Of a stretch of 64,000 bases of DNA, positions 38,412 to 58,664 are shown one piece after another; position 1 is the first letter of the stretch; every line of letters starts with the position of its first letter. The notes beneath the pieces were generated by a model. It did not search any database and was not told the origin of the DNA. It saw only the letters and a list, made by a program, of their open reading frames with translations. Source of the stretch: Bryum argenteum (taxonomy: Eukaryota; Streptophyta; Bryopsida; Bryales; Bryaceae); assembly GCA_037043015.1 (NCBI GenBank), contig CM073321.1:43978420-44042419 (forward strand), given 5' to 3'. The translations under genes were made by a program, and so were the position numbers.

Positions 38412-39514
38412 AGCAACACGGTGTCCACCTCCTCATGTATGATTAAATGCATACTTTGATGTATAGGGGGGTGGGCCGCGTTTGGGATGACCCCCGTGGT
38501 CGAAGGACCACCGGGAGGTACAACGCTATTCCGGACGTCTTGGGAGACCATTGGGTTGGCGTATACCGCCGGTGGTTGAGCGCTAGGGGGGACCGGTTGC
38601 ATCCCCATGTAATATTGGACCGGGGGATTACTTGGTCCCGTACCTTGGCTTTGGTCCGACGGTGGTGGAACATAACTAGTAGGAGCCATTGGATACCATG
38701 GAGTCGGGTATGTATGTAAAAGGTACCCTTGTGCCGACTTATCATAGAAGAAGCCTTGGGTGGGGGTTGAGGAGCTTGAAGCCCCCGGAACGGTTTCCGG
38801 CTTTGCCTTTTTTTGGCGGAAACACCGCTCGGTGGGGTGGTTGTCCCCACAATTGTCACACACCACGCCGGTCTCCACCCAATACTTTCCCGGACCAATG
38901 GGGTGAAATCGCCCACATGTAGGGCACGGCGTCCCCTTTGGTAATGGTGGATTACCCCCGGTTGGTTTGGGCGGTGTAGGCCGGCTATGTGGTGGGACAT
39001 ACGGGCTTGGATTAGGTGGACTTGGGCAAAATCGGGGAGTATGACCAAATTGCCGGCAATTTGTGCACCAAAGGTTAGACGGGTGTACCCCCGGTCTCAC
39101 TTACGGTGGTGGTGCATTCATGCTTTTAGCATTAATGGCCATGGTCAATTGGTCCCCTAGAGACTTGATGGTGTTCATCATATCCACCTTAAGATCATCA
39201 TTGGCCTTTTTAAACCGTTCCTCTAATTCCGCCAACCGGTCCACCTTAGGAGGTTCCGGTTGAGGGTGCCATTGAAGTTGAGGAGCCGGTGGCCTTGAAT
39301 CAAGGGGGTTGGGTTGAACATAACCGGAGGTATATGGTGCCATAGGCCTAGATGGCTCCCCCGGGGTTTGACCCTCCTTATGAGGAGGTTCGTAGTGAGT
39401 GGGGATAAATGAAGGAACCGGGGCCACCGATCGGGCCCACATTCGGTTATTCTCCTTCTCTATACTCTCAACTCGACGGGCAGCGGTTTGGGCATCACCC
39501 ACCGTTCGGGGCAT
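38405..39514 (-). CDS. Ty3 gag C-terminal part with zinc knuckles
   Basis: This is the part of gag downstream of the DNA-transposon insertion. It begins near PRTVGDAQTAARRVESIEKE, has a proline-rich linker, and then an in-frame TAA at 39101-39103. After it come CTNCRQFGHTPRFC (a CX2CX4HX4C knuckle at about residues 5-18 of the downstream part), CPTCGRFHPIG and CDNCGDNHPTERC. It ends with VLLW and TAG at 38405. The in-frame stop (sequence CCGTAAGTGAG) could be a nonsense mutation or part of a splice donor. Confidence 0.85.
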
Positions 39515-39521
39515 GGAGGGA

Positions 39522-39530
39522 CGTAGCTAC
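39522..39530. other. Weak candidate target-site duplication, left
   Basis: CGTAGCTAC left of the transposon and CGTGCATTC right of it (57930-57938) match at five of nine positions when aligned. A 9-bp duplication would suit a Mutator-like element, but the match is poor and does not restore the gag frame exactly. Confidence 0.25.
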
Positions 39531-39565
39531 GGTGTGAGCGGAGAGCGGTGAGCGGTGAGCGTTGA
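39531..39565 (+). repeat. Left terminal inverted repeat of the 18.4-kb transposon
   Basis: About 35 bp made of 7-mers of the form GAGCGGT/GAGCGGA/GTGAGCG. The first 27 bases or so match the reverse complement of the right end; beyond that the number of 7-mers differs. Confidence 0.88.
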
Positions 39566-40000
39566 GCCATCAAATTTCAGGATTTAGAGCGCTGATTTGG
39601 TTTTTTTAGTAAACAAATTTCTAAAAATAATATTTTACTATTTATTTCAGGAATATTCTCAAGAATATTCGAATATTCTTCACTTATTACCGTGGTTTTG
39701 TGCTCCTAAACCCGTGGATATAAGGCTAAATTTTCTGAAATTCGGTGGACTTAAACCACGTTCTTCAAACATGATGAGACATTTACGAATTTTACAGAGT
39801 AGACTAGAATATTATAACTGTGAAATCAACAGTCCAAGTTTGTATAGCAAATCATAATTTTTGGTAAATATGGATACATTTATTGATTATAGTAAAACGC
39901 TGAGATCAAAATAATAACGTGTGAAACACACGATTACAGGGATAACATGTAGAATGGGTAGATGTGGATGCTGGTTTACGTAATGTGACCTTGAGGTAGT
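39566..40000. other. Left subterminal non-coding segment of the transposon
   Basis: AT-rich, with no credible gene. It contains GAATATTC clusters at 39650-39680. It is probably the transposase 3' flank and subterminal transposase-binding region; no function is shown. Confidence 0.4.
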
Positions 40001-43000
40001 CTACTCTCTAACTTGGTCTAGGATTCCCCTCTCTAGAATGTTTTTCACCTCGTTGAAACTGAGGGTGGGCGCGTGGATGAAGAGGTCTCTATCAATATCA
40101 AATTTGCATACCAATACTAACACGAAGTATAGGTGCTTGCAATGTCTATACGGTTCGCCTTTTCGTCCTAACTTAGCTATGGTTTTTTTGAACACCGGGC
40201 AAGAACACTCAGGGTTCTCACTAAGAGATAGTTTATAGATAGACTCTGAATCTGACTCCAAAGCAACGATACATCCAAAACCAGGTTGTGGTATCATGGT
40301 CACCTCGAGTATTTTTGCCTCCATGGCACGAGCTGAATCAATGTTCTTCATGTGCTTCGGAGTCACAGCCTTGATGCGTCGAAGAACTTTAGACCTGCGT
40401 GATTTGGGGTACAGATCAGCCTTGTCCGGGGAATATGTGACAAGTCTCTCGGTGGCGCAGAAGTATTGAATGTGCGGTTGAGAGGAAGGCGTTCCTTTTG
40501 TGGGAGCCGAAAACCCGCATTCTCCAACACCTCTATCTCGTCCACTGTCAGATTGGTCCCGATCTTCACGGGCCAAATAGAGGGAATAGGCGGTCGACCT
40601 TGTTTCCGAGAGAACGGCTCAATCCATTTACGACGACTGCCCTTCACACAACGCTCAATGTAAATGCGGACAAAAGAAAAAGCGATCGCTTTTTTTGGAC
40701 CCTCTTGAGGACGCTGCCATACTCCGGTGTAAGTTGGAGCTGCGGTCGCCTTTCCGTTTTGGACAATGCGGGATTCGCATTTCTTCTTGGTCTTAGCCAT
40801 AATACCCCAACAAGCCTTGGATGAGGATTCTTTCAAACGAGCAATGTGCCATAGACGCTCATTCACTCTCGTCTCTTGGATAGCAATGACGAAAATCTGG
40901 GTCCTGGAGAAGAGGACGGTTCCAGCGGTTGCTCTTGAACTTCATCCTCTTCGTGGATAGGACTGAGATTCTCAGCAAGAGCTCGTGTGACTCTTCTGCC
41001 TATTCGAGGGCGTGAGTAACTCACGGTATCAGGTCGATGAGTTTCATCTTCAGCACCAATGGGAACATCAGCCTTACGTTTCCTAGAACCAAAAATCTCT
41101 GCCCCCTCCAAGTGGGCGTCACGCGTACAGTAAGCTTCTGCTTCAGGGAAGTCCATAACGGCCTTGTTGAGGCAAGATGGATTGCGGATCGATTAGCCCG
41201 ACGTTGAGCGGTATAAAGACGCCGGCGAAGTTCTTCTACGGATGGTGCGATCCACTTGCACCGCGTTTGTTGAATTGGTGGTAGCCGACCACTTGGAGGA
41301 ATGCCCGAACGTAGTCGTCAACGGCTGCGACGTAGAGATCCCTACCCTTATTGCCAGACGCTTGCAACCACTTGTTGTGGATTGACTCCGCAAGATTACA
41401 TGAAGGCATCTCTGCGAGTTCTTCTGCCGAATATTTTCTTTCCTGCAATGATCAAACGTATTAGGCCTTTATTACTAATTTGAATTTGTACTTAATACAG
41501 ATTGGAAGTATATAAATGAACATAAAAATCAACTATTACTATATAAACAAGAACTGTTAATTTCTTTGGTACTGTCATAACATTACAGAAGCTACCATAG
41601 AGCATGAAATCAGCAGAATTATTGCAAAGAAATAGTACGCTTACTAGTTCCATAAATCCAACCCATTGTCTGTATCTAAAGTGCCAGTACGCAAGCCAAT
41701 GACCCAAGTGTTCTAAACCAACTTCGGAAGTGGCCTTCGAGGATGCCCACCATGCTCTTATAGCCCAATATCGGGTCTCAGCCTCTTCCATGGTGCGCGC
41801 ATCCTTATACTGCTTACAGAGAATCCGGTGTTGGCCTTGCAATTCGGGCACAATGCATTGTTTCGTATGTTTCTCAAGAGACTGCGTCCAATGGAAATAA
41901 CATGTCCGTTCCCGACCTTCCATGGGGATGACAGGGTTCCCAGAGCCGTAGATGATGCGCACAGCGTTCCAATTGGCTTGAGCACTATCAGCCATAAAAC
42001 CTTGGAACTGCGGCTTGGGTACTCCGTTCCTCGCCATCACATGATTAAGGTTCTTCCAGAAGACGAGTTGAGCATCTTTGTCCTCTGATTGGAAATCACA
42101 GCATGCAATGGTTAGAATGCGTTGGTAACGTGAGTCGTACACGTGGCAGGCCATGGTGGTCCAATCCGTAACGCGTTTGACATGGTCAAACATCATCCAT
42201 GCGTGGGAGAGATATCCTCCAGGCTGCATTCGGCGAACCAGATCAACACCGCTTCCGGGGCCGACCTCCGACATCTTGAATATGAAGACTTTCTCGGATT
42301 CGTCGCCCTGGCCAGGGAACATGTTGCGTTGCACATATGCCCAATTGCTGAGACCTCTGAGCTTTGTGATCCCATCGAGAATGCCATACCTACGCAAGTA
42401 CTTGAAAGTGTAGATACGATTCCGCATACTTGGAGAGTTTAACTCTTTGCATTGTTCAAAGACAGGTTCGAGCTGCTGAAGAGAAAGATTGCCGGTTTCG
42501 GGGTCACCTTCGTCACGGAGAAGTAAGTTACCTAACAAGTCTTTGCTGGTTTCCATAACTATTTTGGAAACGGTTGCTTGAGGGTTACGGTCAATATGCT
42601 CTTCTAGTAACTCATCTATTTTTTTCCTTACACATCTATAATCTCCAACTTTGACAGGGTGCTCGTGCGTTCCTATATGGACACATGCACGCTCCTGACA
42701 ATCCTCTCCAACTACGTAAAAGATCTTCGCAGAACAAGGCGCAACACAAACAGGAGGTTGTTTGCAAAGCTTACAGACCAACGTCGAGGTGGGTGGGGGC
42801 GATCCGCCTACCGAGAATGGGTCTTTGGTAATGCCTTCAAACTCCACGTCGTTTACTCCAGCGACTCGATCAAGTCGTTGCAAGAAGTCGCAGTCTGGGT
42901 TGTGGCACTGTAGATGTCCTACACAGTTGGAGTATTGGAAAGACAACCCTTGCGTATTGCTGATGTTGGTGGTCATCGTCCTAGTCCACACATGACCGTC

Positions 43001-43768
43001 GTACCGTTTATCCATCCCCTCCATGGACTTCGCAACCTTGTGAGTTGCAGACGGCAGAGTTGGCGGAAAGATGAAGAGTACATCGCCATTGAATGACGGA
43101 GGCAAGAAAGATACGTTGACGGTGCGGATGGTTTTGAAATCAATTTTTTTGAGGAGAGTCTTGCTACTGGGCATACTAGCGAGGTTGCAGAGAGATGGAA
43201 GAATTTTTTTGGGTCTCACAATTTGCGATGAAACTAAAGAAGGAGGGGTGGCTCTTAGATAGTTATCCCTAACAAGAGGTGGCAATGGAATATCAGACGT
43301 CAGACGACATGGTTGCAGAGGAGACTTCTTCTCGTCTTCTGATGAATCCGATATGTCAATGGTGACTTCGAGACCTGGTTCGACCTTGACACGAGTAAGA
43401 GCTGGAGCAACCGTGGAGATAGTAGAAGAACTACGTGGGGTCAGGAGAACTGTTGAGGCGTTCATGACGGACTCTGTCAAGCCGTAGAGGCGATACTTTC
43501 CAGCTCGAAGCTTCCAGATTGTAGTATTGTTCTCTAGGATGATTGGATCTACGACCATGGAGTACTGAACATGATTAGTATCAGGTTCTAGAACTTCTCT
43601 CTCTAACCACAGGGAAGATGCATCGTAGCCGAATTGAATTCCAAGCCACGATGCACTGATGTCTACGACACCTTCAAGCCCTACGGCCATGCAAATGGGA
43701 ACAAGTGCTCCTTGTGACAGAATCTCAACAATGTCTGCGGCAATGGGTTCAGTGGACGAGGAAGCCAT
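40001..43768 (-). CDS. Mutator-like (MULE) transposase with SWIM finger, frames broken in 3' part
   Basis: ATG at 43768. Exon 1 (43768-41645, 708 codons) ends at a GTAAGC donor; the acceptor TTGCAG leads in phase into 41442 (ERKYSAEELAEMPSCNLAES, HNKWL). Domains: an acidic N-terminus; a zinc-binding region near 42655-42915 (HLQCHNPDCDFLQR, later CVHIGTHEHP) resembling WRKY/GCM1-type fingers of MULEs; the catalytic region with MACHVYDSRYQRILTIACCD, FMADSAQANW and the CYFHWTQSLEKH (C-x2-H) motif; and a C-terminal SWIM finger CSC...HCKH at 40130-40212. Between 41238 and 40440 the protein continues in different frames (VEELRRRLYTAQRR; CTRDAHLEGAEIFGSRKRKA; NERLWHIARLKES), implying several frameshifts, unseen introns or assembly errors. 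Cut-and-paste transposition is the family role. Confidence 0.85.
40130..40212 (-). other. SWIM zinc finger of the transposase
   Basis: The pattern C-x-C, then about 22 residues, then C-x-H is seen (NPECSCPVFKKTIAKL, then YRHCKHLYFVL). SWIM fingers end most MULE transposases and bind DNA or protein. The frame containing it stays open to its stop at 40001. Confidence 0.9.
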
Positions 43769-44191
43769 GATGTCCGAGAGGACCAACGAGCATCGACAGT
43801 GGATGTAAGGAAAGGATACACACTAGGTACGATACCGTTTATAAGAGAGAATTTGTACTAAGATCTCGTAATGAAGTGAATAAGGTGGGGAGAGTGATTA
43901 AACCAGACAATTACCATGAGGAAGAGTGAATATGGTATACCATTAGGCAATTGTAATTAGTGTCATTAAAGTGCAAATGCTGACAGTCACGAAATTGGAA
44001 AAGTGACGGCGGCCGGCATTGTCAGAGCATTTGTATGCAAATTCAAAAATTAGATTAGCATATCATGTCAGAGACTGTCACAGTTGGCAGACCACGAGCC
44101 GTCATATTTGTTGCGATAATTTATGATAAACTGCACAATTTACGTTAGGGGCGGCTTGTGAACTTTGTTTAAATAGGAGTAGGACGACGAG
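43769..44191. promoter_or_regulatory. Divergent promoter region between transposase and plus-strand genes
   Basis: Roughly 420 bp separate the two divergent start codons. It contains several CTGTCA/TGACAG-type motifs in both orientations (for example 43980-43990, 44021-44026 and 44067-44082) and AT-rich stretches. Shared control of the two transcription units is a reasonable inference; no single promoter element is certain. Confidence 0.45.
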
Positions 44192-44278
44192 ATGGTCCTT
44201 TCTTTCGTTCGTTTAGTTCGAGTTGGTAAGGTATTGAGACGGTACGATCAGTGTGCTTCTGTTCAGAGTCTTGACATT

Positions 44279-47200
44279 ATGGACGCGGTGAGCTTGGGGT
44301 TCGAGAGATCCAGTGACAATGTGCCTAAGAAGAAGAAGAGAAGAGGGGGTACTCGTTTTAGTAATACGAAAGCGCGCAAACAAAGTGCATTGCGAAAGGT
44401 GGGTGCGTCTAGGTCAAGTGGAGATGAGGGAGGCCCTGCTGATTTTGATTTGAACGATGATGAACTCGGGCCCCATTACAGGAGGAATCTGAAAATGCGG
44501 TCGATCAATCTTGACACAGTGATCGAGATTAACGAGAAAGACACTGGTGAAGATGAGAACAAATTCAAGAGATTCATAGATGAGCAAGAGCGCAGTAGAA
44601 GTGGATCGACATCCAGCGAATCTCTATGTTATTACATAGGAGGTGATGAGGTTGCACAGGATTCCAAGAAGCAGGTACGCTAGTATTCTTGAGTTTGTGC
44701 TATTTAGTTATTGCAGTTTGAGTTTACTGAGTTGAATGTTTGTTTACAAGGTTGATGCCGATGAAGGTCCCAAGAACGATGAGGTAGATGAAATAAGTTT
44801 TGACAATTCGGACAAAAACTTGAAGGACAGTGATGAGAACGAGGAGCAAATGGACGAAAAGAAGGCGTTGGTAGATGTTGGAGAGAATGAAGATACCATC
44901 GATCGAATTATAGAGGAGGAGGTAAATGATATGACGTTTTTCCTAAGTGTCATGAAGGAGTCAGGGCACATTTTAGCATTCACCTCGATAGATTAGAGAT
45001 GTGAGTATGTTTGCACTAAGAAAATGTGACCTAATATTGAATAAATGATTGATTGGTTTTCGTACTTGTAAATCATGTGAGTTTTGAATGCGGTACAAGT
45101 GTCAAGTCTCGTGAATAAAAGAGGGCAAATATTCTAACATAAAGGATCCAAGGGTATATCCCCAAGCGGGTACGGGTATACAAAGCGCCGACGGGTATCG
45201 GGGTGAGAACCCCCGGCCCGGGCAGCAGCGACGGTGGTTACGGGGTAAGAACCCCCGGCCCGGGCAGCAGCGCCGGCGGGTACCGGGGTGAGACCCCCGG
45301 CCCGGGCAGCATCGCCGGCGGGTACCAGGGCGAGAACCCCCGGCCCGGAGTGAGAAGCCCCCGCCCCGCCGTTCAGCGGTGAGCGGTGACCGCGTCGTGA
45401 GCTTGTCGCTGTCCGTCTCTCTCCGCTCCCTCTTCGGAGGCTTCTTCCCTGTCAAATCAGCTGCCTTTGCGGCGCATTGCTCAATTTAACCAGGTGATGC
45501 CGGCACGTTCGTCAAATGATCATGGGTAATTTCTGAAATGGGAGGTCCTCCTTTCTGCGCCGCGCAAAACCCTAGAAATTGAATGAGGAGCCGCCGATGA
45601 AGCCTCAGATAAGCTTGGCAGTCGACAGTTGTGAAAAGCTGTCAGGAGAGATGCCTGACAGAAAGAGTGACAATTTGGATTGTAGCTACCAGAATAGAAT
45701 GGACGCAATTAGTGAAGATGCTTCCGCTGCACTAATACGGCGTACTTGTTGCTATCAACAACTCCTTTCCTGTCTATGTGCAGTTCGGTTTGAAGGAAGG
45801 TGCTACAATGGCAAACTTGGGCGTTGGTGAGGAGTTCACAGTGCAGCGAGAAGAGGAGATCAGAATGCAGCGAGAGGGAGAAGACGTGGAGAAGGAAAGA
45901 GACAATGTGAGTACTGATTCCTCGACAAGCCTCTTTTCTGAGTTTTACAGGGAATACGCTCTTCAATACGCTCCAGGGAAAGAATTCAAGACTCGTGAAG
46001 AAAAGGAGGCGTGGTTTGCGAGGGGCTTCAAGGTATGAATTATCTACTTCAGCAAGTACTGAATTTGCTACTTCTGAATGCCGAGGAATCTCAGTCCTTT
46101 CTCGGGAGAGTACGAGTTCGTTGTTTCTGTCCAGGGGACTTCTCTGGAGAGTGAATATTTTTAGGGGAATTTTGGCCCTTGCACTGGTCCTAGTGTTGTA
46201 GCGGTGTTTTGTTCTCTACGGGGTCGGCAGCCTCCCTCAGACGCTCCGCTGAGAGCCAGGTGATTGGACGCCGACATTCCAATTCCAATTCCTGTGCGTT
46301 ACAGTCGATGTGAATTTGGGTGAATCCCCGGTCCTCACTGGTCCTCGTGATGTCGATATGTTGTGGCTCAAAGGGGGACGGCACCCTCCCAATGCTGTGG
46401 TCCTCGTGATGTTCAGATGTTGCTCGGGAGGTTTCATTTGTTTTTCTGATTCAATTCCTCTTTCAATCTTTCGCTGTGAATGGCGGCTCAATCCCCGAAC
46501 CTCAGAGGTCCTCGTGATGTTCAGATGTTGTGCCTCGAAGGGGCTGGCCTCTTCTCGATGTTGTGGTCCTCGTGATGGCTGATGTTGTGCCTCGAAGGAG
46601 CTGGCCGCTTCCCGATGCTAAGGTCCTCGTGATGGCTGATGTTGTGCCTCGAAGGGGCTGGCCTCTTCCCGATGCTCTGGTCCTCGTGATGGCTGATGTT
46701 GTGCCTCGAATGGCCGACACCCTCCGAATGCAGTGTGACTGGCACCCTCGTGGGCTTCTGTGTGTCTGTGATCTTGCGTTCCTTAAGCTTTTTGAGACAC
46801 GAATTCCCGAAGTGGTCCTCGGTGTGTTAGACTTTCGTGGACGAAAGTTAGGCAGTTGCTCGGGAGGTTTGAATTTTTTTTCTCTTTCAATTCCTCTTTC
46901 ATTCTTTCGCTGTGAATGGCGGCTCAATCCCCGAACCTCAAAGGTCCTCGTGATGTTCAGATGTTGTGCCAGGAAGGGGGTTGGTACCTCTCGATGCTGT
47001 GGTCCTCGTGATGGCTGATATTGTGCCTCGAAGGGTCTGGCCTTTTCCTCATGCTGTGGTCCTCGTGATGGCTGATGTTGTGCCTCGAAGGGGCTGGCCT
47101 CTTCCCGACGCTGTGGTCCTCGTGATGGCTGATGTTGTGCCTCGAGTGGCCGACACCCTCCGAATGCATTGTGAGTGGCACCCTCGTGGGCCTCTGTGTG

Positions 47201-50200
47201 TTTGTGATCTTGCGTTCCTTAAGCTTTTTGAGACACGAATTCCCGAAGTGGTCATCGGTGTGTTAGACTTTCGTGGACAAAAGTCTGGCAGGGTCTCGGG
47301 AGGTTTGTTTTTTATTTTCTCCTTCAATTCTTCTTTCAATCTTTTGCTGTGAATGGGGGCTCAATCCCCGAAATTCACAGGTCCTCGTGATATTCAGATG
47401 TTGTGCGGCGAAGGGGGTTGGTGCCTCCTGATGTTGTGGTCCTCGTGATGGCTGATGTTGTGCCTCGAAGGGGCTCGCCTCTTCTCGATGCTGTGGTCCT
47501 CGTGATGGCTGATGCTGTGCCTCCAATGGCCGACACCCTCCGAATGCAGTGTGACTGGCACCCTCGTGGGCTTCTGTGTGTCTGTGATCTTGCGTTCCTT
47601 AAGCTTTTTGAGACACGAATTCCCGAAGTGGTCCTCGGTGTGTTAGACTTTCGTGGACGAAAGTTAGGCAGTTGCTCGGGAGGTTTGAATTTTTTTTCTC
47701 TTTCAATTCCTCTTTCATTCTTTCGCTGTGAATGGCGGCTCAATCCCCGAACCTCAAAGGTCCTCGTGATGTTCAGATGTTGTGCCAGGAAGGGGGTTGG
47801 TACCTCTCGATGCTGTGGTCCTCGTGATGGCTGATATTGTGCCTCGAAGGGTCTGGCCTTTTCCTCATGCTGTGGTCCTCGTGATGGCTGATGTTGTGCC
47901 TCGAAGGGGCTGGCCTCTTCCCGACGCTGTGGTCCTCGTGATGGCTGATGTTGTGCCTCGAGTGGCCGACACCCTCCGAATGCATTGTGAGTGGCACCCT
48001 CGTGGGCCTCTGTGTGTTTGTGATCTTGCGTTCCTTAAGCTTTTTGAGACACGAATTCCCGAAGTGGTCATCGGTGTGTTAGACTTTCGTGGACAAAAGT
48101 CTCGCAGGGTCTCGGGAGGTTTGTTTTTTATTTTCTCCTTCAATTCTTCTTTCAATCTTTTGCTGTGAATGGGGGCTCAATCCCCGAAATTCACAGGTCC
48201 TCGTGATATTCAGATGTTGTGCGGCGAAGGGGGTTGGTGCCTCCTGATGTTGTGGTCCTCGTGATGGCTGATGTTGTGCCTCGAAGGGGCTCGCCTCTTC
48301 TCGATGCTGTGGTCCTCGTGATGGCTGATGCTGTGCCTCCAATGGCCGACACCCTCCGAATGCAGTGTGACTGGCACCCTCGTGGGCTTCTGTGTGTCTG
48401 TGATCTTGCGTTCCTTAAGCTTTTTGAGACACGAATTCCCGAAGTGGTGCTCGGTGTCTTAGACTTTCGTGCACGAAAGTCAGGCAGTTGCTCGGGAGGT
48501 TTGAATTTTATTTCTCTTTCAATTCCTCTTTCATTCTGTCGCTGTGAATGGTGGCTCAATCCCCAAACCTCAGATGTCCTCGTGATGTTCAGATGTTGTG
48601 CCACGAAGGGGGTTGGTACCTCCCGATGCTGTGGTCCTCGTGATGGCTGATGTTGTGCCTCAAAGGGGCTGGCCTCTTCCTGATGCTGTGGTCCTCGTGA
48701 TGGCTGATGTTGTGCCTCGAAGGGGCTGGCCTCTTCCCGACGCTAAGGTCCTCGTGATTGTTGATGTTGTGCCTCGAAGTGGCTGGCCTCTTCCCGACGC
48801 TGTGGTCCTCGTGATGGCTGATGTTGTGCCTCGAGTGGCCGACACCCTCGGAATGCAGTGTGAGTGGCACCCTCGTGGGCCTCTGTGTGTTTGTGATCTT
48901 GCGTTCCTTAAGCTTTTTGAGACACGAATTCCCGAAGTGGTCATCGGTGTGTTAGACTTTCGTCGACGAAAGTCTGGCAGGGTCTCAGGAGGTTTGTTTT
49001 TTTTTTTCTCTTTCAATTCTTCTTTCAATCTTTTGCTGTGAATGGGTGCTCAATCCCCGAACCTCAGAGGTCCTCGTGATATTCAGATGTTGAGCGGCGA
49101 AGGGGGTTGGTGCCTCCTGATGCTATGGTCCTCGTGATGGCTGATGTTGTGCCTCGAAGGGGCTCGCCTCTTCTCGATGCTGTGGTCCTCGTGATGGCTG
49201 ATGTTGTGCCTCGAAGGGGCTGGCCTCTTCCCGATGCTGTGGTCCTCGTGATGGCTGATGTTGTGCCTCGAATGGCCGACACCATCCGAATGCAGTGTGA
49301 CTTGCACCCTCGTGGGCTTCTGTGTGTCTGTGATCTTGCGTTCCTTAAGCTTTTTGAGACACGAATTCCCGAAGTGGTCCTCGGTGTGTTAGACTTTCGT
49401 GGACGAAAGTCAGGAAGTTGCTCGGGAGGTTTGAATTTTTTTTTCTTTTTCAATTCCTCTTTCAATCTTTCGCTGTGAATGGCGGCTCAATCCCCGAACC
49501 TCAGAGGTCCTCTTGATGTTTAGATGCTGTGCCAGGAAGGGGGTTGGTACCTCCCGATGCTGTGGTCCTCATGATGGCTGATGTTGTGCCTCGAAGGGGC
49601 TGGCCGCTTCCCGATGCTGTGGTCCTTGTGATGGCTGATGTTGTGCTTCGGATGGCCGACACCCTCCGAATGCAGTGTGAACTGGCACCCTCGTGGGCTT
49701 CTGTGTGTCTGTGATCTTGCGTTCCTTAAGCTTTTTGAGACACGAATTCCCGAAGTGGTCATCGATGTGTTAGACTTTCGTGGACGAAAGTCTGGCAGGG
49801 TCTCGGGAGGTTTGATTTTTTTTTTCTTACAATTCTTCTTTCAATCTTTCGCTTTGAATGGCGGCTCAATCCCGGAACCTCAGAGGTCCTCGTGATGTTT
49901 AGATGTTGTGCCACGAAGGGGGTTGGTACCTCCCAATGTTGTGGTCCTCGTGATGGTTGATGTTGTGCCTCGAAGGGGCTGGCCTCTTCCGGATGCTGTG
50001 GTCCTCGTGATGTCAGATGTTGTACCTCGAAGGGGCCGGCACCCTCCCAATATAGTGGACCTCGGATGGCAGATGTTGTGCCTCGAAGGGCCGACACCCT
50101 CCGAATGCAATTGGACTGGCGTCCTTGTGGGCTACTGTGTGTCTGGGATCTTGCGTACTTGAGGCTTTTTGTTAGACTTTCGTGGACGAAAGTCTGGGAG

Positions 50201-50756
50201 CGTCTCGGCACCCTCTGTGTGTGATGATGTGTTTTTTAGCAGAACTGGTGTTTTTTGTATTTTCGTGCAAATTTTTGTCAGGCTTTCGGGCATTGAAGTG
50301 GTACTTATGATCTTCTCGGTGCTCTAGTTTCAAATGGGATTGACATTCTTGTTAAATAATGGAGTTAAATTTTATTTGTTTAGTTTCCTGTTCCTGAACG
50401 CTCTCTTAGAGTTGGCTTACCGATGGTTTTGCGTGGTATTGCAGGATCAGTTAAAGCCAGTTGCAGATGATTCAGAAAAGGAATCCGATGCAGATAGCGA
50501 CCTCTCCTTTTTGAGAGACGAAGTGTTAGCTTACGTTGAGTCCCGTCGATTAGTAGTAGCTTTGAGCTCGGTTCCGGGAACTCCGCCTCCTCTCACCCCT
50601 GTTAGTCACACTTATTGTGTTGACTTTGATCGGATTGCGATTACAAAGCAAATCAAAAAGAATGATGCCAAAGCTAGACGTATCCAAGAGAAAGCAGTAG
50701 CTAGAAGTGCACCACGTCGTTCTCCGCGTCTTGCCGCAAAGTTAAAATTTGTTTAA
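44279..50756 (+). CDS. Unrecognised acidic/basic nuclear-type protein with a giant intron
   Basis: Four exons join in phase 0 with GT-AG borders: 44279-44674, 44751-44921, 45784-46032 and 50445-50756, giving about 375 residues. An ATG at 44192 in the same frame would add 29 residues. The N-terminus is basic (PKKKKRRGGTRF, KARKQSALRK), the middle is strongly acidic, exon 3 holds SLFSEFYREYALQYAPGKEF and EAWFARGFK, and the C-terminus is basic (KARRIQEKAVARSAPRRSPR). No enzyme or known domain is recognised. The composition suggests a nuclear, DNA- or histone-associated protein. The third intron (4.4 kb) contains a satellite array. A weak GTTTAA donor at the end could even join it to the next gene in phase 0; I treat them as separate. 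Confidence 0.6.
45165..45365 (+). repeat. GC-rich minisatellite, unit about 43 bp
   Basis: About four copies of a unit containing CGGGGTGAGAACCCCCGGCC and CGGGCAGCAGCG lie inside the second intron of the unknown gene. Each unit has the self-complementary CCCCCGGCCCGGG. Just downstream (45372-45395) GCGGTGAGCGGTGACCG resembles the terminal inverted repeats. Confidence 0.75.
46320..50060 (+). repeat. Higher-order satellite: 57-bp subrepeat within an 816-bp unit
   Basis: The 57-bp subunit starts GGTCCTCGTGATGGCTGATG and continues TTGTGCCTCGAAGGGGCTGG. Blocks of two to four subunits alternate with longer spacers that include TTGCGTTCCTTAAGCTTTTT and a palindrome. Landmarks recur at exactly 816 bp (46831, 47647, 48463) and then at 930 bp (49393), which is 816 plus two subunits. 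Because 57 is divisible by three, all frames stay open over long distances, giving repeat translations (for example a 19-residue SRHNISHHEDHS-type unit on the minus strand); I do not think these are genes. The array lies within intron 3 of the unknown gene. Confidence 0.93.
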
Positions 50757-50895
50757 TTGTATCCTCATAGTGTATAATATGTTTATCATATGCTTACTTA
50801 TAAAGTGATTATGATATATTATCTTTCTTATATTGTTATTTTGACACATTCTTATTCTCTTTGTGGTCTGCTATATTTGCTCTCTGAATTGCCAG

Positions 50896-53800
50896 ATGAA
50901 TCTTGATCAAGTCGAACTTCTTCAAGATGCAGTGGATACCCGGCCTTTTCTTAATCTTCCACAAACGGTATCTCCCGACGGTGACGAACTCTTACTTGAT
51001 AGTGGCGGATCTGTTGGAGACTTGCGGAATACAGTACCGGAAGAGACTCCATCGATGATGGATCTCCAAGCTGAAGCAACGCAAGGTCCAGATGGTCACG
51101 AGTATCCTTCCGAGGATGATGACACCCCTTTGCCTGGAGGTGTCACCGTTGGAATCGTCCACATGCCACCTCATCTTGAAAACAAAGATCCGGATTGGAG
51201 TGCAAACGAGATGAGAATGATTCACAAAAGTGATTCAATTGCGATCATCAACAGGTTGAGATACAAACCTGTGAAAAAGTCCCGCATGCTAATTCCATTG
51301 TGTCGTCTTGTTTGTTATCCCAAGGTTCGACCTATCTCCGAACAAGACGTACGGAAATTGGAGAATGAGTTCAACAAAGGCTATCGCGAAGGAGACCGAG
51401 TCATGTACGTTTCTCCCTTCAATAGGAAAGGGAGAGAGAAAATTGTTGACGCCGGAGATGCAGTGTGGACGAATCTACTTTGGAAATCTGCAAATGAAGA
51501 GTTTGAGAAGACGTTGCTATCTGATCCGGATCTTCAACACTTGAGCGATAAGTACTTCTACGTGTACGAAGGTAACCACCGAGTTACGGCGTGGATGCGT
51601 CACATTGAGAGGTACCATAAGATGGAAGCTTCGTGGCACATCTCCGTGGACTGTATCGTACTTGATGCACGAGGAGAAAGCAACCTCCTGCTTGACGCTA
51701 TGAACAACATAAATTGGTGAGTACTTTACTGATTTTCCTATTTGCTCTATTTGTATTTTGAGTAACTTCAATGTTTCTTATGTTTGAGTTCGCTCTCTCT
51801 GAGTCAATCGAACATGACCATGTCGAAGACGGGTTGTGTGCAAAATTGCAGCGCATGAGGAAGTTTGGTAAACTGAAACTTGAGGATTTCAAGGATCTGA
51901 TATCTCCAGAAGATTACAGAATATGCAAGAACGCCAAAGCCAAAAAAGATACTTGGTATCCTGTAACAACTGACGTTTTCGTAAAATTCCTATATGCGGT
52001 AAGTTGAGTGTAATGGGTTGGTACTGTGATTCGTTGTATTTGGGATTTTCCTCTTTATTAATCCTTCTTATGTTATGTACAGAGGAGATTAGCAAAGGCT
52101 TCCGATGACGCTGAGACGAATTACTACGCAACAGTCCCAAAGGAGAAACAAACAGGACCCGGAGTTTGGAGTGCGATGGATAATGCGATCAAAGCAGAAA
52201 TTAAGGCCATTCGTGGCAAAAACTTCGACAAGATGGTCGCTGTAGCAAACCATAAACTTGGGAAAGTATTTGCGAAGGAGGTAGAAAATGCACCCCTTTC
52301 ACGTATCATATGACTATATTTGCGATCATGATTCATCACTCGATTCTTACTTGTAAATTACATGTGCAGATTTATTCCCATTACAGCAAGAACCTGAAAC
52401 CCGATATGACAATAGATCGTTTACAAATGGTTGCCACTAGCAATGTTCATTGCGATTTCAAGGGAAAGTGGCTCCAATGGTGGAACTCATCTGACGATGT
52501 TCGACGATCTTTTCGCTTCCCTGATGAACGTCCAATGAAAGATAAAGCTCTGGTGGCATTTCTGCATTGCGCATCTCTTTGGGCACAGGTATCTTCAATT
52601 TTCTTTACGTGTTGAAAAAGTTTGAGTTCATATGATATATTCATCATTAACTTGTTTCTCTTTTACAGCTCGAGCATTCACTTCAAACTGAATTGCAAAT
52701 CCTCATTGACAACGAAAACCTCACCATTGAGTGGTCTAGTGTTGTCCTAAAGCCATCTAAGTATGTAGAGAAGTGGAGGTTGCTCTTATGGGACAAGGCA
52801 TTCAAGAACTACCTTGGTCCTAATGCAAGCCCAAAGTTCATCAAAGGCTCGGATCTTCAAAAGATTACCGGGGGCAAAGTTACAATTAAGCGACTTCTAT
52901 TCCGGTATGTTTTTAATTTTCTCTTCAAAATTATTAAATTTGGTACAACTTGTTCAATTCACACAATCTGATTTTTTCCCACTTTTGTAGGTACTTGAAA
53001 CAAGAGCTCGTTGCGAAGGGAGCATTAGCCTCGTTCTCTATTCCAATGGAGTTCTGGGACATTTCAGTCACAAATGATCCCCGCAGCTTTTTCTCCACAG
53101 CCCAACAAGAGCGGTTTACCAACTCCCAATTGACGACCGGTGGATGGTTTCTGGAGTGTGACGACAACTACGTGCACAAGGAGGAGAAGCATCTTCTTCG
53201 AAACCTTGCGTCTAACCCAGCTGACTCTACACCGATGGACTTTGACGACGATGACGATGACGACCTCTCCATTTTACCACTCGCACCTGATCCAATCTCT
53301 TCTCCTTCTTCACCAGTTGCAGTGCCCAAGTCTCGTGCAAACAGGAAGAGACGCAACGCTGTTGCAGAGCCAGTTGTAGATCTTGAGCAAGAATCCGAAG
53401 AAAATGCTCCCCTCGGAGAAGACATTGCAGGGCCTGAAGATGCTGATCTGACTCAGGCTTCAGCGGGAGCCGCAATCAATACAATTCGACGCGGTGCAAG
53501 ATTGACTCAACTTTCAACAGGTGGACTTACGAATGCTGGGTCCCCTCCTCAATCATTCACCGTTGACCACAACTCGCAGCAGTCCCCACGTCGCCTTAGC
53601 CAGCCAATATTCCCGAGACGCCCTCTTCTAAAACCCAATCACATCGGTAGCAGCTCGTCGTCTAAAATATCGGTGACTTTACCTATGTATCTCGAGAAGG
53701 GCAACATTGGTGATTTGGTTCACCAGTTATCGAAGACTGCAAAATGGGATTCGCAAATCCTCGATATCGTCGAGCACATCAAGAAGGTTTTATTTCTTCC

Positions 53801-55186
53801 CTTTGTCTTTCATGAACTTCTTCTTACGTTTTGTACTTCTAAATCTATTAGCCACTTTCAAATTTTTTACTTGTATCTCAGATTGGAAAAGACCGCAAGT
53901 ACCCGTGTTCGGCGATGGAGTATGAACCCAAGCATCCAGGGATTGATCTCATTTTTGCAGATGCTCCCGAGAACTTGCCTGTACCGGGTGTGTCTCCAAT
54001 AGAAATTCCATCTTGGAACCGGCGTGACAAAACCTACTTTGAGAGCCTCTTCGTGTTTGCCGCGTATCATTTGACAGACGTTGGAGCCATTCTTCTGATG
54101 CATCCCAAATGTCGCAGAATCGAGCGTACTCTCGATGCCGAGTCCCATACATATAGATTTCGTCTTGTTCGAGACTGGTGGGGATATAATCCCCTTCCTA
54201 TGGCATCTACCGTACCTAAACCGAAAGGGGTACGTATCAGAATCTAATTTTCAATTTCGCAATTCATGGTAATTGCCTTCTTTGCATCTATATTAATGTA
54301 TCTATACTTGTGTTTTGCAGACTCACTGCTTCCATATCAAAGTGTATGTTCGCAAAGAGTTTGTTTCGAAGTTCCAAACTCGGCAAGTCGCACACGCATA
54401 TGCGGGTGTGTCAATCGTACCTGATGAGGAAGACCACCTCTGTAACTTTGCAGAGAAAGAAACCTTGCGATATCGTCCGGACGGTACGCCGTGGCGAGGC
54501 TCACGAGAGAAGGACCCTTCCTTCATTCAATGTTTCGTCGATTGTCTCACGGACGAGGGGGGTATAGTCTTCGACTGGAGCGCAAGTAGAGGTAAAGTTC
54601 CCGTAGACTCTACATTAAAATTTGTTTCTACATTTCGCATTTTTAACGTGGGCTTCCGATTTTGTAGGTGCATCTGTGATTGCTTGCGCGCACTCCAACC
54701 GACACCTCATCGCTATGGAACCTGACGAAGAGATCTTTGATGGTATACTCGCGGATTACAAGAACGAACCTTCCGGTGATGAGGAAAGTGGAGAATCATC
54801 CCCCCCCCCCCCCGCAGACTATGACTCTGACGAACCGGTCGTGAAGAAACCACAAAAGTTCATTGGTGCGTATTACCATCTTGTATTCTCTTTTTCAATT
54901 TTAAATTACACACTTACAAATCGGTAGGACTGACTTTCTTTGCAATTTTAGGATCGCAGGTCTAAAAGAGCGATTGACTAGCAACGCTCATCTCTACAAG
55001 AGCCCTCCTTCGAAATTCACCCTACCATCGTACGCTGAGCGACTTGCTCAAGAGTTTGTTCAAGCTCCATCTCTCATTTTGTCTGACACTCCACGTCGAC
55101 GTTATAGCAAGAGTGTGCTTAAGTTTATAGACTTTGAGGCAGATCAGTGTGATCAGCACTTTAATGGTACTACACCGTCTACCTAG
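50896..55186 (+). CDS. ParB-like domain fused to an amino-methyltransferase-like domain (ten exons)
   Basis: Exons: 50896-51716, 51789-51998, 52083-52280, 52370-52588, 52669-52904, 52991-53786, 53882-54229, 54321-54591, 54668-54865, 54960-55186 (about 1,170 residues). Residues 1-120 are acidic. At about 125-275 is a ParB/Srx-like domain (VRPISEQDVRKLENEF, then YEGNHRVTAWMRHIE), with an acidic-helix continuation in exon 2 (ALSESIEHDHVEDGL). After a disordered Asp-run and NLS region (KSRANRKRRN), exons 7-9 form a methyltransferase-like fold: GIDLIFADAPENLP in motif IV position, HLTDVGAILLMHP as motif V, and GGIVFDWSASRGASVIACAH with HLIAMEPDEEIF as motif I. Motif IV before motif I is the beta-class N4/N6 order. 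DPPY is replaced by DAPE and the FxGxG loop by WSASRG, so catalysis is doubtful. All junctions keep phase except exon 1/2. Confidence 0.8.
53882..54865 (+). other. Methyltransferase-like region (motifs IV, V and I)
   Basis: Exons 7-9 hold motif IV (FADAPENL at about 53951-53974), motif V (FESLFVFAAYHLTDVGAILL at about 54040-54100) and motif I (IVFDWSASRG spanning the exon 8/9 border, then IACAHSNRHLIAMEPDEE). The arrangement matches phage and bacterial ParB-methylase fusions in kind. The substituted catalytic residues are noted in the gene entry. Confidence 0.75.
54799..54814 (+). repeat. Poly(C) tract in exon 9
   Basis: A run of about 15 C encodes the SSPPPP stretch and is followed by GCAG. 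It is a likely slippage site, and CCCGCAG also resembles a splice acceptor. Confidence 0.8.
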
Positions 55187-55407
55187 TGTGTGATTTGTTT
55201 TCCGATAGGTACTGGACATGGTAGCGCCATACATTCGTAGTTTCCCATGATCTATTACTTATATACTATCTATATGTGTTTTTAAATATATACGGTTTTA
55301 TATTTTTATAAGTCGGAAATTTGTATTCAATAAATTCAAGCACATTCAAGCCAACTCTCACACCAAGTGTGACTCGTGGCCATACAACTACTATAACTAG
55401 CAATCAA

Positions 55408-55845
55408 CTAGTCGTAGTTGGAATCACTTCCAAAATCACCGCCGCTGCGATCACCAGCTTCTGAAGTGAATTCCACGAAATCTTCCCAAATCGTCTGGAG
55501 AGGCACTATCTCATACTTGTTGCAGCTGAAGCACCCCCAATTCTTGCCCGTCATGTCTTTCAGGTAGTCGTCTCCCTTGTTCCGTGCGATACACCCTGCA
55601 CACCACGCCTTGTTACAATAATCACACAGGATCACAAACTGAATTCCCCCACACCAATTGCATTGCTCATCATCGTACTGGGCGTTCTTCGTGAATACAA
55701 CGTCGTCCAACACAAGTTTGCACGAAATGCATATGCCAACACCGAGACGAGGATGCTCCAACAAACAAGCACGCATTTTTTTCTCCCCACAAGCAGTGCA
55801 AGAATACAAATACAAGGGATCGAAATCGGCCGAATGCCCCGCCAT
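55408..55845 (-). CDS. ADD-domain (ATRX/DNMT3-like) zinc-finger protein, 145 residues
   Basis: ATG at 55845 is the first in-frame ATG; the frame stays open upstream to about 55980, so an upstream exon is possible. A GATA-like finger (CTACGEKK with C16/C19, then GICISC with C39/C42) is followed by a PHD-like part: DEQCNWCGG, FVILCDYCNKAWCAGCIARN and KNWGCFSCN. The order and the EQCNWCGG...LCDYC...WC..C...C..C pattern match the ADD domain of ATRX and DNMT3, which reads histone H3 unmodified at K4 and, in ATRX, trimethylated K9. The tail is acidic (SEAGDRSGGDFGSDSNYD). It lies convergent with the ParB-methylase gene, 220 bp away, inside the same transposon. There is no helicase or methylase domain of its own. 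Confidence 0.85.
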   Translation of the reverse strand: MAGHSADFDPLYLYSCTACGEKKMRACLLEHPRLGVGICISCKLVLDDVVFTKNAQYDDEQCNWCGGIQFVILCDYCNKAWCAGCIARNKGDDYLKDMTGKNWGCFSCNKYEIVPLQTIWEDFVEFTSEAGDRSGGDFGSDSNYD

Positions 55846-55984
55846 TTGATCCACAATTGTGCAAGAGTGAGAAGTTTCAAAAGAGAGATGGCCCACGAAC
55901 TGCTCTGAGATGCTGGCTTCCGTTTCCTCCGTTCTTGTATATAAGGAGAGAACTTTGGATTTACCATCCAACCTCACCAACCCG

Positions 55985-56110
55985 ATTTATCAGCACCGGC
56001 AGTGCAGTCAGTATCGGCAATCGGCACACCAGCAGCGCCGTCAGAATCGGCACCGACAAGGCAGCTTTTCTGAACTCTATACCGGCACCGACATTCCAAC
56101 GAATCAAGAA
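55985..56110. repeat. CGGCACCGACA-type short repeats
   Basis: Several degenerate copies of CGGCA(C/T)CGACA and ATCGGCACACC occur in the right subterminal zone; related GAGCACCGACATTGAGC units return at 56724-56800. They are candidate transposase-binding or spacer repeats. Confidence 0.55.
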
Positions 56111-57880
56111 TCGACACAATTCCCATACACTCTCATGACGTTGGACGTGAGTTCTCAGGGACACCATCATTGCACTTCGTCCCTCCTGCTAGTTTGTCGG
56201 TCCCTCCTGCTAGTTTGTCGGTGCCATGCTAACCACCTGCTTGATCTTGGTGCCCATAGGGCCGGTTCTTTCCTCTCCCTCGTTCCATGGAAGTTGTGAT
56301 TGATTCATTTTTTTACCACCGCAGTGCTCGTTTGAAGGTCCTCGACTCCGATTTTGGTCACTCCCTGCTTGTACATCTAGCCGATGTCATTGTCATCACC
56401 TGCGCATGGGACCGGTGCCAGGTGCTGTACTTCGGCTCATGGAGCTAATTTCGAAGCTGTACTTTGATCTGTTATTGTAATGGAAGGGCCGTTTTGCTCA
56501 CCGACCAATGGACGTGAGTTCTCAGAGACACCATCATTGCAATTTTCTTACATTCTCGTGAGTAATCGAATCACTACCGCATCCTTTTCTCCCATCTCTA
56601 CTAGCACATCACAATGAGCACCGAAACTGCACAGCTTCATGGAATGTATTCACCCCTAAACCGACACTCCTTATGACACAACCCATCCAATGTGATGAAG
56701 TCCAACATCACAATGCATGAGCACCGACATTGAGCATGAGCATGAGCATGAGCATGAGCACCGACATTGAGCACCGTCATTGACCATGAGCATGAGCAGG
56801 AGCACCGGCATTTGAAGGTCAAATTCATCAAATAGTGTGATACTATGGATTTTTGATGATATTACAGAAATTTGTTGATATTATGGAAGATGTGGGTGAT
56901 ATTAAAAAACGTGCCATTTTGCAAGCATAAATCTTTGAGATTTTGAGTTCAAAATATATGCCGGTATAATGGCACGTTTAAGAACGCGACCAAATTGGCA
57001 CAACATGGCTTTGGTAATATGGCAAGAGGAATTGTGTTATTTTAACGGAATTGAGGTTTACTCTAAGTATCTCAGTACAGTGTAATGTAAGCCATGCATG
57101 CCTTTGACGGTGACATCAGCCCAAATTTTAATGTAACTTCTTGAACTCCAATATCAATGCAACGATGTATGTAAATGTTTAAGTACTAAACTCATTGCAC
57201 TCTAAAAGTTTTTTTGTTTCCATTGAAGTGATTGAAGCTTGCCAATGTTGGTAGGGGCTATAGTCCAGTAATTGTATAGCTCAGGATAGCTGCTTTAGGA
57301 CGCGGTGCAACGCTCAAACGAGGCCGAGGAGAATCGAACTCGGACCACTACAATGCCACGTGAATGTCTTTCTGTACACCTTACAACTTACAAGGTGACA
57401 CGAAGAAGACGACTGTAGTTATAAATTTTAGATTATATGAACCGAAGCACTTACATATAATTCTGACAGGTGTAGTAGGAAATTGATGACGTCAGCCCTA
57501 ATTAGTCTCTAAATCTTAATATTGATAAATGAAACTTATTGATTACCTAAACGGCCATCCCAAATTATGGTATATATTTTGTATATGATTTTAATTGTAT
57601 TGGTTAGACATGATGATGCCAGCCTATAATTTAATTAACTTTTATCTAAACTTGCAAATGTGGATAATTTATGAAATATTGTATAACCTCAGTACCATAA
57701 AAATAAATGGATAAAGGACCTATATCCACGGTGTTGGGTTCTTTTTTTGCCTAAAAACGACCATATCAAAAATTCAGAACCACCCATTTCATGGTAATAG
57801 GGCTATTAACTTTTAAATTTTTTTTGCAATGAGTGGTAATAGGGTCTTAATCTTTCATAAAAAAAAAAAAAATCTGCCAA
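56111..57880. other. Right subterminal non-coding region of the transposon
   Basis: No credible gene. AT-rich beyond 56820, with an A-tract at 57860-57872 just inside the right inverted repeat. The stretch at 57250-57360 has tRNA-like promoter boxes but does not fold as a tRNA. Confidence 0.45.
56735..56810 (+). repeat. GAGCAT microsatellite
   Basis: Several copies of GAGCAT alternate with CACCGACATTGAGCACCG in the right subterminal region. Confidence 0.8.
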
Positions 57881-57929
57881 TCACCGCTCACCGCTCACCG
57901 CTCTCCGCTCACCGCTCTCCGCTCACACC
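57881..57929 (-). repeat. Right terminal inverted repeat of the 18.4-kb transposon
   Basis: About 49 bp of CCGCTCA/CCGCTCT 7-mers ending CCGCTCACACC; the outer part is the exact reverse complement of the left end, with extra 7-mers inside. Confidence 0.88.
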
Positions 57930-58664
57930 CGTGCATTCCCCGGACATGGAGTTCAACACATCCCGGATTGTGGATTGTTTGTTGAATCCTTGGATGAAGT
58001 AATACCGGATGGTGTCATCGGTCAAGTGGTTGCCCACGAACCTTGTTACCACCGTATTAAACCGGCGTATATACTCCGTGATACCCTCGGTGGGCCCTTG
58101 CCTTATCTCCGTGAGGGCCACCAAGGCATTTTGTTGCCCGGTCTCGGGCCTAAATTGCCTTAAAAAAGCCGTTTGTATGGTCGACCAATCCACAAACATT
58201 CCGGGGGCGTGTGAGCGGTACCACTCATATGCCGCCCCCTCTAAGGTAGTGGAAAACCAAACCAACCAATAGTCTTCTTCGGGAATGACATTGGTCACGA
58301 GGGTTTCAATATACCTCTCAATATGATTGGAGGGGTCCTCGTGAGCCATCCCGGAGAACTTCGGAAGGTGCATGAGCATGCCCCGTGGCGCTAACCCCAC
58401 GGGCATCACTATTGGAAGCCCTCGTGGGGCCATCATTGCATCCGCCGGGTCAGGAGCAACCGGGGGTACCGGGGCGCCCGGGTTGAATGGTTGCGCCATG
58501 CGAATAGAATCAACTTGGACCACCGGAACCGAGGAGTTTTCTACCTCTGAAGTCCCACCTTCCAAATCCTTAGGTTGGTCTCCTACTAATTGACTAAATC
58601 TACTTTGGGTACCCTTGTGTGATGGTAATTCACAGTACGATCTTCCCGATCGGAGTGTTACCAT
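57930..58664 (-). CDS. Ty3 gag N-terminal part, cut by the transposon
   Basis: ATG at 58664. After a disordered leader (MVTLRSGRSYCELPSHK at the start) and a proline-rich stretch comes the retrotransposon gag core: HLPKFSGMAHEDPSNHIERY, LVWFSTTLEGAAYEWYRSH, FLRQFRPETGQQNALVALTE and ITEYIRRFNTVVTRF. The reading frame ends at the transposon border after GEC-T; the rest of gag is at 38405-39514. Confidence 0.92.

Follow-up and report, generated by a model that had tools for sequence, protein, structure and literature searches.

A 64,000-nucleotide stretch of Bryum argenteum DNA (hereafter the window) contains a transposon enclosing four genes, which encode a transposase, a basic/acidic low-complexity protein (gene X), a protein that joins a ParB-like to a methylase-like domain (ParB-methylase), and an ADD zinc-finger protein. 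Tentatively, we read it as a MULE-like moss transposon that supplies its own sequence-specific recognition protein for its DNA, with anti-silencing as the outcome. The ends of the element and its insertion site are made up of the following features.

39509–39518: left target-site duplication, gggcatggag (copy ends read by eye; empty site)
39519–39530: left outer terminus, GGACGTAGCTAC, not inverted to the right outer terminus
39531–39567, + strand: left terminal inverted repeat, with 7-bp repeats of the GTGAGCG type
57893–57929, − strand: right terminal inverted repeat
57930–57941: right outer terminus, CGTGCATTCCCC
57942–57951: right target-site duplication, ggacatggag (read by eye; empty site)

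An ~18.4-kb DNA transposon with inverted terminal repeats had been proposed here in the initial annotation. Its ends are confirmed, each now placed 12 bp further out. A search for further copies, also suggested at that stage, returned seven complete ones with the same ends, and copies hold ends and gene order together. The terminal inverted repeats (TIRs) are 37 nt long and 95% complementary. Their edges were rejected as the ends of the element, since the copies share a further 12 bp on each side and the target-site duplications (TSDs) lie beyond. A scripted test for TSDs at the TIR edges found none in the window element or the seven complete copies, with cognate pairs performing no better than non-cognate ones. 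Read by eye beyond the outer 12 bp, TSDs of 8–10 bp were present in all of these; those in the window are 10 bp long and identical at 9 of 10 positions. Because the extra 12 bp are common to the copies and duplications occur only beyond them, the element was assigned to 39519–57941 (18,423 bp).

The two outer 12-bp sequences were found in the window and the seven complete copies in either orientation, with one substitution in one copy for each, and the left one is near-identical in a copy of a second subfamily (L084). As the outermost 12 bp on the left differ from those on the right, each being conserved across the 8 copies compared, the two ends can be distinguished outside the TIR. A 30-nt TIR probe, allowing up to 3 mismatches, matched 440 + 408 = 848 similar ends in the host genome (258.8 Mb, 25 contigs), compared with 0 + 0 for a reversed-pattern control.

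The predicted empty site, a 156-nt sequence formed by the joined flanks and one TSD copy, was uninterrupted over positions 1–156 at 40 of 40 listed places (96–100% identity; 40 of 104 candidates scored). This intact site shows that the element jumped into a Ty3-type repeat, which bears out the earlier claim that a Ty3 sequence is split here. The DNA transposon, with defined ends, TSD and empty site, is real, and it would presumably move by cut and paste.

The family is concentrated on one 44.1-Mb contig, C1, which makes up 17% of the genome and carries 37 of 69 exact TIR matches, 84 of 150 listed methylase matches and 54 of 94 listed ADD matches. C1 could be a sex chromosome, or else a chromosome rich in repeats.

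The transposase is encoded by two exons.

40001–41451, − strand: transposase exon 2, broken in the window copy, with a SWIM-like finger at about 40118–40216
41561–43768, − strand: transposase exon 1, 3′ bound approximate; D528, D594, C623 and H626 invariant in 47 aligned sequences

In the window, shifts of frame break exon 2 into four pieces. Of the 27 other copies with a match, 12 have it as one uninterrupted match that spans at least 455 of 477 residues. We identified 126 homologues, 120 of them listed without a precomputed Pfam domain, and the transposase alignment (A2, n=47) holds D528, D594, C623 and H626 among its invariant positions, giving a D...D...C-x2-H pattern when read by eye. Pfam MULE models matched none of the 47 members; two had a Transposase_mut match (best E=0.034), and other families each appeared a single time. 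At the C-terminus, a match to SWIM (PF04434) was weak and below the cut-off (E=0.54), and a C-x-C...C-x-H pattern could be read by eye in the window and L084.

MULEs are described as having TSDs of 8–11 bp and TIRs, many with a SWIM finger and extra open reading frames, and some with minisatellites (PMC6446971; this and the other cited sources were available to us in part). The 8–10-bp TSDs of the window element and the seven complete copies fall in this range, and TIRs are present, the outer 12 bp not being inverted to each other. Together with the weak SWIM finger, these sequence features fit a MULE-like element. The MULE type assigned earlier fits the TSDs and TIRs; its SWIM finger is weakly matched, and Pfam MULE models gave no match.

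The ParB-methylase gene and its link to the transposase

The ParB-methylase gene is read on the opposite strand.

50896–51716, + strand: exon 1, predicted ParB/Srx-fold domain with the motif EGNHRVTAW
51804–53786, + strand: exons 2–6, conserved middle region and acidic/proline-rich linker; exon 2 acceptor altered in the window copy
53882–54229, + strand: exon 7, motif IV D-A-P-E at 53960–53971
54321–55186, + strand: exons 8–10, motif X-like GSREKDP, motif I-like DWSASRG-ASV and C-terminus

Linkage between genes was established by genome searches, in which the best 58 of 1748 transposase, 150 of 1000 methylase, 150 of 303 ADD and 134 of 1235 ParB candidates were scored. Transposase copies fell into subfamily A (at least 80% identity, n=34) and subfamily B (73–76%, n=24). 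A ParB or methylase exon lay 3–25 kb away, on the expected side and strand, for at least 23 of 34 copies in subfamily A and at least 11 of 24 in subfamily B. Among the matches listed, 3 of the 34 subfamily A copies and none of the 24 in subfamily B had such an exon on the wrong side or strand. Since only part of the candidates was scored, these linkage counts are lower bounds. A methylase match was also found within 8 kb downstream of 62 of 134 listed ParB matches, with 62 of 63 distances between 2.4 and 3.1 kb. The transposase and ParB-methylase genes are thus linked, and the ADD gene lies beside a minority of listed methylase exons, in two places, so the core consists of the first two genes, with ADD as an optional component found in more than one position. 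Of the transposase, ParB-methylase-like and ADD module in the initial annotation, the first two parts hold together and ADD as a fixed part does not. All four genes counted there are present, with the qualifications that in the window the transposase is broken, the acceptor of ParB-methylase intron 1 is altered relative to three other copies, and the methylase lacks its catalytic aromatic residue.

Both core genes have been under purifying selection between the subfamilies. By the Nei-Gojobori method, applied to one pair of copies per gene and with dS near or beyond saturation in several exons, dN/dS was 0.133 over 1081 codons for ParB-methylase and 0.099 over 724 codons for transposase exon 1. 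ParB-methylase dS between the two subfamilies was about 1.4. The gene has ten exons, and a second-subfamily copy retains an open frame of 1164 aa. Relatives of this full copy were three proteins, all from Ceratodon purpureus (48–50% identical).

Exon 1 has 22 homologues, 20 of which were combined with the window and a second-subfamily copy (L069) in an alignment of 22 members (A4). PHROG 1033, annotated as ParB-like, matched 11 of the 22 (best E=0.0027). An AlphaFold2 model of the ParB part gave block means of pLDDT 71–96 over residues 111–270, and its top 36 PDB matches in Foldseek were all ParB, Noc, PadC, KorB, SbnI or sulfiredoxin (probability 0.89–1.00). This modeling supports a ParB/Srx fold for the exon-1 domain. 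A G-N-H-R motif, which we take to be the active-site GxHR-type motif of the ParB/sulfiredoxin superfamily, occurred in 18 of the 19 A4 members reaching that part.

Homology of the second half to the beta-class DNA amino-methyltransferases was found with N6_N4_Mtase (PF01555; E=0.0024 for P0001 and 0.009 for L069, both below the cut-off) and PHROG 3008 (E=2.5e-5), and by hhalign with phage methylases (probability 94.7, aligning only the part after motif IV). In beta-class enzymes, the catalytic motif IV reads D/N/S-x-P-Y/F/W. Relative to three phage methylases, the moss protein has D-A/V-P-E in place of D-L/P-P-Y, GSREKDP in place of HPTQKP, and DWSxSTGAS as its glycine-rich motif I. At 30 window-type methylase loci on both strands, motif IV was D-A-P-E in 28 and D-A-L-E in one, with one unread; it was D-V-P-E in L069 and D-A-P-E in all three Ceratodon proteins. 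The catalytic aromatic residue is consequently Glu in all 33 proteins with a readable motif IV (29 window-type loci, L069 and three from Ceratodon), a departure from the catalytic motif of the class. The methylase half is probably an inactive pseudo-methylase. Because motif I keeps one of its glycines, binding of S-adenosylmethionine is possible.

Searches of PDB sequences returned nothing meaningful for the alignments of the transposase, ParB-methylase or ParB. When viral_contigs was scanned, alignment A2 yielded 243 pattern stretches and A1 114, none of them confirmed; in a phage collection, 178 records matched distantly (best E about 0.01 among 20 listed). A viral origin with close relatives was rejected on the basis of these distant phage matches, the lack of a confirmed relative in viral_contigs, and the count of zero there for the palindrome described below.

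Palindrome arrays 5′ of the ParB gene

Between the transposase and ParB-methylase genes lie gene X and its minisatellites.

44279–44921, + strand: gene X exons 1–2 (44279–44674 and 44751–44921), encoding a basic/acidic low-complexity protein; bounds by eye
45184–45348: GC-rich 42-bp minisatellite
46419–50109: minisatellite of 57-bp subunits in 379–493-bp units, in the inferred long intron of gene X
46829–50195: nine palindromes, AGACTTTCGNNNNCGAAAGTCT, with 0–2 mismatches, at 46829, 47265, 47645, 48081, 48461, 48954, 49391, 49772 and 50174
50445–50756, + strand: gene X last exon, ending in ...RRSPRLAAKLKFV; similar exon in L069

The minisatellite of the window element contains nine palindromes, compared with 0.04 expected. 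The exact sequence was found at 65 places in the genome and its reversed pattern at none; it was absent from viral_contigs. Palindromes are 22–26 bp long and fall into two loop classes, GTGA and TGGA, of which TGGA forms arrays. Proximity to listed ParB exons was scored in a window of −12 to +20 kb. The TGGA entries, 52 arrays or single sites, included at least 25 with a listed ParB exon in this window (2.5 at random); of these 25, 23 lay 0.46–3.1 kb directly 5′ of the exon. For GTGA, at least 17 of 67 sites or arrays had a listed ParB in this wide window (1.8 at random). At least 6 of the 67 had a listed transposase within 15 kb, four of them within ~170 bp of the end of a transposase exon-1 match, all in the second subfamily.

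The repeat units themselves are dissimilar. When units from five lineages and a transposase intron were compared by blastn, they had in common the palindrome and as many as ~20 adjoining bases; other matches were short and weak. The palindrome is therefore essentially the sole sequence shared by otherwise unrelated tandem repeats, situated just 5′ of the ParB gene where this could be checked, and this observation is new.

Covariation within the palindrome was measured in 186 sites (every one of the 86 in the GTGA class, plus the first 100 of 424 in the TGGA class) at three arm pairs left free in the search pattern. These pairs were complementary in 154, 140 and 182 of the sites, compared with 109, 127 and 95 expected if the two sides were independent. 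The highest value belongs to pair 7/16. In the GTGA class alone, the corresponding values were 67 against 68, 72 against 69, and 85 against 47, a clear excess at the last pair only. The symmetry of the palindrome has largely been kept through paired substitutions. Relative to the ParB gene, the TGGA loop was in the sense orientation in 14 and antisense in 9 of the 23 arrays directly 5′ of it. As the loop occurs in either orientation, a DNA site is favored over an RNA hairpin.

The GC-rich 42-bp minisatellite shares the long intron with the larger minisatellite. A long GTGA-class array elsewhere in the genome (C6:14634570–14662092, L087), with listed copies mostly ~412 bp apart, has no listed ParB exon nearby.

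Proposed self-recognition and its alternatives

The initial annotation had suggested that the cargo might recognize the element itself. The palindrome arrays, which it did not mention, strengthen this idea. In the mechanism that we tentatively propose, the ParB-fold/pseudo-methylase protein would bind the palindrome repeated in the noncoding arrays of the element. Target sites would be provided by the arrays directly 5′ of the ParB gene and, in the other subfamily, singly by the transposase intron. Through these arrays the protein could accumulate on element copies and keep them expressed or accessible despite host silencing, much as VANC proteins act on motif arrays in the VANDAL elements of Arabidopsis. 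The ADD protein would be an optional addition that reads the histone H3 tail. Palindrome binding by the ParB protein is inferred from its predicted fold and the position of the sites, and anti-silencing is suggested by analogy.

Few transposons are known to specify a protein that recognizes their own sequence and counters silencing; VANC is one case and the closest functional model here. Its short target motif has accumulated in tandem repeats within introns and upstream regions of the VANDAL element that encodes it, where VANC binds and removes silent marks (PMC5735166); these target repeats diverge quickly (PMC5735166; PMC10398659). The moss element resembles VANDAL (VANA transposase, VANB, VANC) in being MULE-like, in carrying accessory genes and in having arrays of a conserved motif, here putative binding sites, in its own noncoding DNA (PMC5735166, PMC10398659). 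In contrast to VANDAL, its accessory protein combines ParB with a pseudo-methylase, an ADD protein can be present, and its motif is a 22–26-bp palindrome rather than the short YAGTATTAY of VANC21; for the moss arrays, protein binding and anti-silencing are predictions. In Pfam scans of the exons and an intact copy, no VANC or VANB homologue appeared; the matches were limited to N6_N4_Mtase, SWIM, ADD-type and some further weak zinc fingers, with no direct sequence comparison to VANC having been made.

Several results weigh against self-recognition. No listed ParB or methylase exon was at the expected place for 11 of 34 (A) and 13 of 24 (B) transposase copies, and no listed ParB was near 27 of 52 TGGA and 50 of 67 GTGA arrays or sites. 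Covariation at arm pair 5/18 is weak, with 140 complementary sites of 186 compared with 127 expected, and no more than 109 of the 186 have all three arm pairs intact. Related sites also share ancestry, so the covariation counts are not independent events. Pfam ParB models matched no member of A4. The AlphaFold2 model of the ParB part is modest (mean pLDDT 71.9, pTM 0.58), with a best Foldseek E of 5e-3, none at or below 0.001, and TM-scores by query length of 0.22–0.28 over the top 36. Finally, the ParB part of the ParB-methylase Bce_0392 from Bacillus cereus is reported to nick DNA nonspecifically (PMC5512222).

A related interpretation, which we consider rather unlikely, is a working ParB-parS-type system in a eukaryote. 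After loading at palindromes beside its own gene, the protein would spread or bridge along element DNA. The resulting self-marking nucleoprotein domain would counter silencing or bring copies together, and the inactive methylase would serve to bind DNA or a partner. In ParB-parS and Noc-NBS partition systems, palindromic sites are clustered beside a parB-like gene, and the moss element shares both this arrangement and the predicted ParB fold. The sequence of its palindrome differs, being presumably unlike parS.

Because the ParB part of Bce_0392 nicks DNA, the main rival to self-recognition is a nicking role, though we judge it unlikely. The ParB domain would act as a nickase or nuclease in transposition chemistry or element replication, and the palindromes would be cutting sites or replication-associated hairpins. 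Besides the nonspecific nicking by Bce_0392 (PMC5512222), the G-N-H-R motif kept in 18 of the 19 A4 members that reach it and selection on ParB-methylase about as strong as that on the transposase are consistent with this role. Against it, the top-ranking fold matches belong to chromosomal ParB and Noc rather than to nuclease members, which may be rare in the PDB, and the palindromes occur in internal arrays, not at the termini.

The palindrome could also act as an RNA hairpin in the gene X intron or transposase pre-mRNA, controlling splicing, small RNAs or decay. Compensatory changes do preserve complementarity, the sites read fall in inferred introns, and the GTGA class can be read as a 9-bp stem with a GNRA tetraloop. 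We nevertheless find a hairpin quite doubtful: the mixed orientation of TGGA loops (n=23) better fits an orientation-free DNA site, an Rfam scan of the element gave no match, and A-A and A-G mismatches are common at pair 5/18 (37 of 186).

Marking of element DNA by an active methylase, as the initial annotation had envisaged, is very improbable and was rejected as a leading idea. The domain is still recognizable and keeps one motif I glycine, but Glu replaces the catalytic aromatic residue in 33 of 33 readable proteins and GSREKDP replaces HPTQKP. Since every protein read has an altered catalytic motif, the idea of marking by methylation is weakened. Least probable of all is that the non-transposase genes are passenger host genes captured in Pack-MULE-like fashion with no role for the element: acquisition of host genes is common in MULEs (PMC6446971) and ADD lies beside a minority of listed copies in two positions, yet ParB-methylase has been kept in two subfamilies (dS ~1.4, dN/dS 0.13, full 1164-aa frame) and has relatives in Ceratodon, making a passenger origin unlikely for this gene and leaving it standing for ADD alone.

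Bacterial and phage ParB-methylase fusions such as Bce_0392, and polyvalent proteins, also join ParB/Srx to an amino-methyltransferase domain (PMC5512222); the moss gene differs in having ten exons, in its location in a eukaryotic transposon, in its changed catalytic motif and in a long conserved stretch between the domains. Extra genes, as in the moss element, are present in MuDR (mudrB), Mutyl (MutB) and Phytophthora MULEs with SET, and minisatellites in Rehavkus and Phantom, the former with a PHD finger (PMC6446971). The available part of that MULE survey describes none with ParB, methylase or ADD and contains no occurrence of moss or Physcomitrella (PMC6446971). In the literature that we could search, which contained few subscription papers and no preprints, no eukaryotic transposon with these genes was described, and within it no earlier link of the ParB, methylase or ADD families to such MULE-type elements was found. 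If self-recognition is correct, the moss element would be a second, apparently independent case of anti-silencing, one assembled out of a ParB fold of prokaryotic type and an inactive methylase, and would suggest that such systems arise repeatedly. With a palindromic target mainly in these elements, discrimination between self and host by a transposon would be directly testable in mosses, which are tractable laboratory plants.

The ADD gene

The remaining gene of the element lies downstream of ParB-methylase.

55408–55845, − strand: ATRX-type ADD zinc-finger protein, 145 aa

Its product matched the ATRX ADD structures 2lbm, 2jm1 and 3ql9 (E=1.0e-14 to 1.5e-14). By sequence homology it is a genuine ATRX-type ADD gene, and an optional one. 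ADD was rejected as a fixed component, as only 20 of 150 listed methylase matches had it at the position seen in the window, 1.4–3.0 kb past the methylase exon on the opposite strand. In 13 more of the 150, ADD was found 5–11 kb 5′ of the methylase exon. One example of this arrangement is at C1:11976265–11983459, with 12 similar places; ADD is on the opposite strand there, at roughly the place expected for the transposase, and this lineage is perhaps non-autonomous.

At four places (C10:4215359/4217582, C1:12653033/12651258, C2:27594089/27596282 and C11:6655219/6653408), a second ADD-like frame lies ~2 kb from full ADD copies and is 36–44% identical over the PHD half among the matches listed. 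From sequence similarity, these are a tandem pair of ADD-like genes in another lineage.

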